From contig JADHWK010000066.1 in NCBI GenBank assembly GCA_016783505.1, positions 1 to 12,253 of the forward strand: 12,253 bases of DNA. Direction: 5' to 3'. A program made the translations under genes and the position numbers. The notes beneath the pieces are model-generated. The model was given only the letters and a program-made list of their open reading frames with translations. It ran no database searches and was not told the origin of the DNA. Source of the DNA: Candidatus Zhuqueibacterota bacterium (GTDB lineage Bacteria; BS750m-G25). Positions 10,162-11,326 of the stretch are shown here, in pieces. Position 1 is the stretch's first letter, and every line of letters begins with the position of its first letter.

Positions 10162-10330
10162 AAGGATCGGGCAGTTGAAATAATGGAATAATGGAATGAT
10201 GGGGTAATAAGTATATCAAATGATCAGGGATCAGTGGGAAGAATATTAGAAGAACATGATAAGATAAACGAGTTAAACATCGCATGGAGAAAATTATCTG
10301 GTATTCTGATACTCTGATCAGTCCGGCGTC

Positions 10331-10366
10331 AGTTAGGCATCCGTCCGGCGCCTGACGGACCTGACT
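10331..10366. repeat. Bulged hairpin upstream of secG
   Basis: AGTTAGG (10331-10337) pairs with CCTGACT (10360-10366) using one G-T pair. Inside it, TCCGTC (10340-10345) pairs with GACGGA (10354-10359), separated from the outer stem by a 2-base bulge and closing an 8-base loop. No T-run follows, so it is not a standard terminator. It could be a repeat or a leader structure for secG. Confidence 0.4.
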
Positions 10367-10487
10367 AACCTGAAGGATATTCTGATTTACTTTAAATTAT
10401 ATGAGTCTTGTCGCTATGAGTTTTTTAAAAAGTAGAAGCCTAATATTTTCAATGATGTTAATAGTTACATACCACGGAGGATAGAAG

Positions 10488-10856: not shown

Positions 10857-11115
10857 ACATATTAGTTCTTCCCGAAATTTAATGGTTAATTAGGAATGGA
10901 GGTTTGTTGCAGAGCGGGATATATTGGAAAATTCGAAGCACGATTCCGAACCTTCGGGACGAAACAAATCCGAATGACCAAAAGCCAAAATTAGAAGAAA
11001 TATAATTTATAAACTTAAGAAAATAGATATTAGTTGAAGCTTCGGACTCATATAGCGTAAAGGTAACTAACGTTTTGAACATCGGTCAGGCGCCCGGGCC
11101 TGTTGCAGAACTATC
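10857..11115. other. Non-coding spacer after secG with dispersed-repeat look
   Basis: No gene is supported. Positions about 10933-11000 contain TTCGAAGCACGATTCCGAA, a TTCCGAA/TTCGGGA imperfect hairpin, and CAAATCCGAATGACCAAAAG. Strings of this kind recur, from memory, in intergenic DNA of many environmental bacterial genomes, but I cannot check that here. A half copy of the CCCGAA palindrome is at 10871-10878. An AGGC/GCCT mini-hairpin leads into the palindrome array that starts at 11116. Confidence 0.4.
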
Positions 11116-11227
11116 GCATAGGAATAAATTCCTATGCTAACTCTAAGAAAGTATGTTGAAACATACTGTTATTAGTCCCGAAGTTTCGGGACTTTCGTTG
11201 AGATAGCGTGATAATTTATTATCACGC
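11116..11227. repeat. Array of four short perfect palindromes
   Basis: Four perfect inverted repeats with 2-base centres follow one another. They are GCATAGGAAT/ATTCCTATGC (11116-11137), AGTATGTT/AACATACT (11150-11167), AGTCCCGAA/TTCGGGACT (11174-11193) and GCGTGATAAT/ATTATCACGC (11206-11227). The stem sequences differ, so it is not a direct-repeat array. Their midpoints are about 32, 25 and 33 bases apart. A fifth, imperfect hairpin (CCCTCCC/GGGAAGGG, 11265-11286) follows. The set resembles a REP/BIME-like or non-autonomous IS200/IS605-type element, or a structured RNA. No transposase is present. Confidence 0.7.
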
Positions 11228-11305
11228 AAAGAGGAAACCAGCGATTTCAGAGTTGTGCCACAGGCCCTCCCGACTGATGGGAAGGGATCATAATTGACAA
11301 TTTTC

Positions 11306-11326
11306 AATTGACAGTTGTCAATTTTT
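11306..11326 (+). terminator. Palindrome AATTGACA/TGTCAATT with T-run
   Basis: Perfect 8-base arms at 11306-11313 and 11316-11323 overlap a run of five T residues (11322-11326). A third copy of AATTGACA sits at 11292-11299. The stem is A/T-rich and may be weak as a terminator. It could insulate the tRNA, which begins 10 bases later, or be another repeat of the spacer. Confidence 0.35.

Follow-up and report, generated by a model that had tools for sequence, protein, structure and literature searches.

A four-hairpin, REPIN-like repeat within a 170-bp MITE, probably derived from repeats of subclass-1.2-type Y1 transposases

Bacterial MITEs of the RUP, Correia/NEMIS, Nezha and ERIC type are short, non-coding, intergenic sequences with terminal inverted repeats (TIRs), a target duplication and strong hairpins, and are presumed to be mobilised in trans. 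The element described here resembles them in each of these respects, its mobilisation in trans being likewise presumed. It differs from them in that its interior is a separate four-hairpin repeat which also lives alone, and in its insertion site, the middle of a 20-bp palindrome, where a 6-bp duplication flanks it. ISPsy8, ISPa11, ISPpu9/10 and ISRm22 likewise insert into dispersed palindromic repeats, in their case REPs (Tobes and Pareja 2006, PMC1525189), whereas the inserting sequence here is a non-autonomous MITE which leaves a 6-bp duplication, and its target is a 20-bp palindrome itself inserted in other hairpins.

The interior of the element shares with the REPINs and BIMEs of RAYTs (Bertels and Rainey 2011, PMC3116915; Nunvar 2010, PMC2817692) short palindromes that occur as inverted pairs scattered between genes, two-sided changes which keep the pairing, and the presence of similar hairpins by Y1 genes. 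Unlike in those systems, each arm consists of two different hairpins, with TTAG or ATAG rather than GTAG or CGTC at the foot, and the associated Y1 proteins resemble subclass 1.2 of TnpA_Y1 rather than the RAYT groups. The signature of that subclass is Y---Q--HH; it is entered in a table as REP 'no', and its genes are described in the text as generally devoid of IS200-type terminal structures (Quentin 2018, PMC6006769). Against that published account, we find perfect palindromes flanking nearly all of the subclass-1.2-like loci considered below. In the limited literature covered, we found neither an earlier printing of these flanking palindromes nor a paper on subclass 1.2 later than Quentin 2018.

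The window, a stretch of 12,253 nucleotides from a Candidatus Zhuqueibacterota genome (GCA_016783505.1, contig JADHWK010000066.1), contains between secG and tRNA-Leu the four palindromes hp1 to hp4 (Table 1), whose midpoints lie 32, 25 and 33 bases apart. The initial annotation, made from the letters alone, had reported four perfect stems with 2-base centres within 112 bases, and both their coordinates and simulation bear this out. When the window was simulated with a first-order Markov model (300 runs), the mean was 0.19 such palindromes per window and no run had more than one per 112 nt, so that the four observed are far beyond chance. As TAA directly follows hp1, the opposite strand shows 5'-TTAG at the foot of this hairpin. 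The fifth, imperfect palindrome also reported, at about 11265-11286, proved to be the right insertion junction rather than another hairpin of the series, made up of the 6-bp duplication, what remains of the 20-bp target and the adjacent DNA.

Table 1. Features of the element and its insertion site, in window coordinates.
Feature	Position	Strand	Sequence or evidence
Left part of interrupted 20-bp target palindrome	11082-11096		TCGGTCAGGCGCCCG; ends in CGCCCG
Left 6-bp target duplication	11091-11096		CGCCCG
MITE class A, 170 bp	11097-11266	+	class-A copies, near-full and partial; about 29 elements with paired ends, all classes together
Left TIR	11097-11115	+	GGCCTGTTGCAGAACTATC
Two-hairpin unit 1 (hp1-hp2)	11116-11167	+	alignment, covariation, covariance model
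hp1	11116-11137	+	10-bp arms, 2-nt centre; GCATAGG-AATAAATT-CCTATGC, then TAA
hp2	11150-11167	+	8-bp arms, 2-nt centre; AGTAT-GTTGAAAC-ATACT
Two-hairpin unit 2 (reverse complement of hp3-hp4)	11174-11227	-	inverted relative to unit 1; alignment, covariation, model
hp3	11174-11193	-	9-bp arms, 2-nt centre; - strand sequence AGTCCCGAAACTTCGGGACT
hp4	11206-11227	-	10-bp arms, 2-nt centre; - strand GCGTGAT-AATAAATT-ATCACGC
Right TIR	11248-11266	-	reverse complement GGCCTGTGGCACAACTCTG
Right target duplication and remainder of 20-mer	11267-11277		CTCCCG + ACTGA

The annotation had further suggested a REP/BIME or an IS200/IS605-derived element, which is largely right for the hairpins (inverted REP-like units of Y1-type form) but misses the MITE shell around them, with its TIRs, 6-bp target duplication and 20-bp palindromic target. 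The genome-wide search it proposed for the string as a unit found the four stems recurring together elsewhere in the genome: near-full copies of 11080-11300 lie on many other contigs, together with further matches to the ends alone. Alignment of copies and a scan for paired ends yielded about 29 full elements, mostly 150-255 bp long, all of which have the terminal repeats GGCCTGTTGCAGAAC / GGCCTGTGGCACAAC in common and whose interiors fall into at least four classes. The TIR pattern GGSCTGTKGCASAAC, allowing at most one mismatch, has 53 matches in the genome against none with a reversed control. The ten full copies of class A have a mean identity of 90% (83-98%), and the window copy is 88-98% identical to the others. 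By mechanical ORF calling within short flanking stretches, none of the 25 copies tested had an ORF of at least 80 codons across the element. Short, non-coding and multi-copy, with TIRs and a target duplication, these sequences show features by which MITEs are recognised. They occupy many unrelated intergenic places with no dominant orientation of the neighbouring genes, and the window copy, inserted between secG and tRNA-Leu, has otherwise no evident role for either.

The class C MITEs (L026, L028-L030, L032-L036, L038 and L039) have the same ends and another interior, composed of AGAACCG...CGGTTCT and TATCCCGA..TCGGGATA hairpins, which is similar to the flanks of one of the genome's Y1 genes (L050). 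One and the same MITE shell may have acquired different hairpin repeats on more than one occasion.

Several aspects of the insertion site point to the way in which the shell moved. Firstly, halves of the 20-bp palindrome TCAGTCGGGCGCCTGACCGA flank nearly every MITE copy, in either orientation of the MITE, and 135 genomic sites match the palindrome with three mismatches or fewer, against one for the reversed control; the edges of these copies are sharp and their flanks for the most part unrelated. Secondly, the left-right flank identity across 29 elements is 0.91 for 6 bp, against 0.23-0.47 for other lengths. The flanks agree at 5.45 of 6 positions compared with 4.03 when shuffled among copies, the observed value being reached in 0 of 5000 trials, and in the 6-mer variants CAGGCG, CAGGTG and CGCCTG the left copy matches the right. 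With one 6-mer removed, the joined flanks agree with the 20-mer at 16-20 of its 20 positions; in the window, where CTCCCG has a single mismatch to CGCCCG, the removal restores TCGGTCAGGCGCCCGACTGA. The combination of TIRs, a central site in the 20-mer and a 6-bp duplication is the pattern expected from insertion by a DDE transposase.

An autonomous partner with the MITE TIRs was sought in the genome (about 60% complete, 89 contigs) among four transposase families, and none was found. No PF13610 transposase, as would fit kinship with IS6/IS26, whose ends we take to resemble the MITE TIR, was present in this roughly 60% complete assembly, nor was there any match to the IS1182-like (PF13751) or IS5-like (PF13586) families; the only PF01609 transposase in the genome has ends unrelated to the TIRs. 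A TIR 20-mer had no match in genome_contigs, and the ten matches of a TIR 16-mer in viral_contigs, all of single ends with the second end absent, were taken as chance. Copies of the element were confined to their own genome in a search of 59 genomes (this one and 58 sharing only the domain), and seven genomes with related Y1 genes returned only two weak partial matches, both in one genome.

The 20-mer is itself inserted in other repeats, with no visible target duplication, at sites in hp1 of L014, L018 and L037, in hp3 of the free element L216 (TTTA^TTGG) and in another 20-mer (L057), and has the appearance of a minimal mobile palindrome. The dRS3 repeats of Neisseria, which are also 20-bp palindromes, present in high copy and used as an insertion site, offer a comparison.

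Within the shell, the differing stems had been read as not belonging to one repeated unit, which is incorrect at the two-hairpin level: hp1-hp2 is homologous to hp3-hp4 read as its reverse complement, and the two can be aligned, along with class-B interiors and stand-alone copies, as a single two-hairpin unit. In this alignment 12 of 18 pairs have changed on both sides, with 29 two-sided changes against one one-sided change when counted by cell. The covariance analysis across copies that the annotation had called for confirms that the stems covary (0.537 against 0.194 +/- 0.032 shuffled); with the stems also recurring together, neither of the grounds for refutation named in the annotation applies. 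Because the alignment rows were picked via a partly palindromic hp1 pattern, the hp2 helix, in which 7 of 8 pairs have two-sided changes, provides the fairer test. G-U pairs are almost absent among these base-pair changes, which points to DNA palindromes rather than an RNA.

A covariance model of the two-hairpin unit (R1) has 61 genome matches at E-values up to 1, which are rough, and these include six TIR-free inverted pairs (L215, L216, L223, L225, L235 and L241). One of the six, L215, has hp3 and the spacer (AATCCAATTTATTGGATTTACAAATAACT) in common with class-B MITEs. Since the four-hairpin repeat is also found without MITE ends, it is a separate element, and it is REPIN-like in layout, with two homologous units in inverted order. 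It has the dispersed palindromes in inverted pairs that characterise REPs and REPINs; in place of a GTAG or CGTC foot tag, most units carry TTAG or ATAG. A 390-kb sample of the genome, which is not random, holds 53 palindromes with 2-nt centres against 7 in simulation. At one locus (L011, 566-617) the inner part of hp3, CGAAACTTCG, is replaced by another, perfectly paired core, ATTAAAAT, a degraded form of which occurs in L022; this is a wholesale change from palindrome to palindrome.

A search for TnpA-REP-type transposases, as the annotation had recommended, recovered three clear Y1 transposase genes (PF01797; L048, L049 and L050), although their products score 22.6-26.7 bits against the NCBI REP_Tyr_transpos model, below its cut-off of 80 bits. 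Against the IS200 model they score 52.9-71.5 bits (cut-off 55). All three have a short Y1 core of 147-159 aa with the Y---Q--HH motif and, judged by motif and length, appear to be of subclass-1.2 type. Hairpins with AATNAATT cores, like those of hp1 and hp4, flank L048 and L049, and L048 is also flanked by a hairpin with the hp2 core. L050 has ATCCCGAAACTTCGGGAT on both sides, which shares 16 bp with hp3 (TCCCGAAACTTCGGGA). The likeness is one of hairpin form, cores and partial identity: none of the three genes has an exact GGATAGG-type unit directly beside it, and when the two-hairpin model was run on the Y1 loci only a variant at L050, about 1.2 kb from the gene, rose above noise, the best E-value otherwise being 0.37. 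At L048, a four-hairpin stretch of about 170 bp is directly repeated on either side of the gene (1067-1240 and about 1700-1875).

This association extends to 80 relatives of L049 and L048 (loci L133-L212), mostly from Bacteroidota with a few from Cloacimonadota, Marinimicrobia, Ignavibacteria and Latescibacterota, of which 75 have the Y---Q--HH motif. Palindromes with 2-nt centres number 173 within 350 bp of the gene (54 kb) and 8 farther out (129 kb), those with no centre number 70 within 350 bp and 2 in the 2.4-fold larger amount of DNA farther out, and any other centre length yields at most five. Of the 80 loci, 78 have at least one flanking palindrome, whereas among 63 distal control stretches of equal size only one does. 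The commonest core beside these subclass-1.2-like genes is that of hp2, and most neighbouring palindromes have their centres 40-50 bp from each other, compared with 32-33 in the hp series. Of 30 of the relatives' genomes, 27 contain one such palindrome, CCCACGGTTNNAACCGTGGG, 1-21 times in each, with no control matches; its copy number is low and many of its copies lie close together. Hairpins with CCCACGGTTGAAACCGTGGG flank a Flavobacterium subclass-1.2 TnpA. The association between palindromes and Y1 genes is strong, and from it we infer that the enzymes would act on the hairpins.

The ends, the duplication, the target, the independent cargo and the palindromes by Y1 genes are direct observations. 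The explanation which accounts for them best, and which we consider probable, is that a four-hairpin REPIN-like repeat resides inside a 170-bp MITE, with a DDE enzyme moving the TIRs and a Y1 HUH enzyme of subclass-1.2 type moving the hairpins. On this explanation, a putative DDE transposase, whose gene was not found, would have moved the MITE via its TIRs into the centre of the 20-bp palindrome, so producing the 6-bp duplication. The four-hairpin cargo would derive from repeats of subclass-1.2-type Y1 transposases, and its hairpins would be the single-stranded DNA structures recognised by these IS200-like enzymes, which would act on them in the manner of IS200/IS605. The order of events suggested by these data is that the MITE acquired the four-hairpin repeat and not the reverse, and the element may move, or may once have moved, by two systems. 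Some observations weigh against this explanation: no autonomous partner for the TIRs turned up in the incomplete assembly, none of the Y1 genes has the exact unit directly beside it, and the wider palindrome spacing near transposase genes, the TTAG/ATAG foot and the REP_Tyr_transpos scores below the cut-off fit it less well. More tentatively, it is possible that subclass 1.2 in general has cognate repeats, in the form of paired perfect palindromes with 0- or 2-nt centres, and that an independent four-hairpin element of this kind was here captured by a DDE-type MITE.

If true, the element would be a chimaera with signals for both single-strand and double-strand transposition systems. As observed, it is a MITE with another dispersed repeat as cargo, landing in a third palindromic repeat, and it offers a testable substrate for the subclass-1.2 Y1 transposases, for which no partner sequence is known. 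Both points bear on the origin, spread and upkeep of bacterial intergenic palindromes.

A plain MITE, whose internal hairpins formed within it by foldback or template switching and are unrelated to Y1 transposases, is the foremost alternative, and we consider it unlikely. The TIRs and target duplication on which it builds are solid, template switching is able to keep palindromes perfect, and most single-copy differences inside class A are uncompensated. However, two- and four-hairpin units are also found free of TIRs, so that an origin inside the MITE would require their later escape, and 2-nt-centre palindromes with the same cores concentrate beside Y1 genes.

That the series serves between secG and tRNA-Leu as a structured non-coding RNA or 3'-UTR element, such as a terminator or a determinant of mRNA stability, is very improbable. 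The RNA fold is indeed very stable (z = -7.6 for the + strand, -7.2 for the - strand, relative to shuffles), and the hairpins of transcribed MITEs are known to have effects in mRNA (PMC3733652). Yet the copies lie at many unrelated intergenic loci with unbiased orientation, an Rfam scan gave no match, the hairpin series contains no terminator-like site and the base-pair changes are nearly free of G-U intermediates, so that the folded RNA proposed in the annotation is unsupported; signals for a terminator or promoter role were not above shuffled expectation. We give equally little credence to a classical RAYT/REP BIME with GTAG or CGTC tags, which would fit the arrangement in inverted pairs, the spread outside genes, the preservation of the palindromes and the similar hairpins that flank Y1 genes, but not the absence of either tag, the better fit of the Y1 proteins to the IS200 than to the RAYT model, or the two different hairpins of each unit.

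Further palindromic sequences lie in the window outside the MITE. A separate 8-bp palindrome is present at 11306-11323, and the segment 11292-11323, AATTGACAATTTTCAATTGACAGTTGTCAATT, is a tandem 14-mer forming a palindrome directly before tRNA-Leu. At 10319-10375, upstream of secG, TCAGTCCGGCG / CGCCTGACGG palindrome pieces form a nest that resembles nested copies of the 20-mer family.
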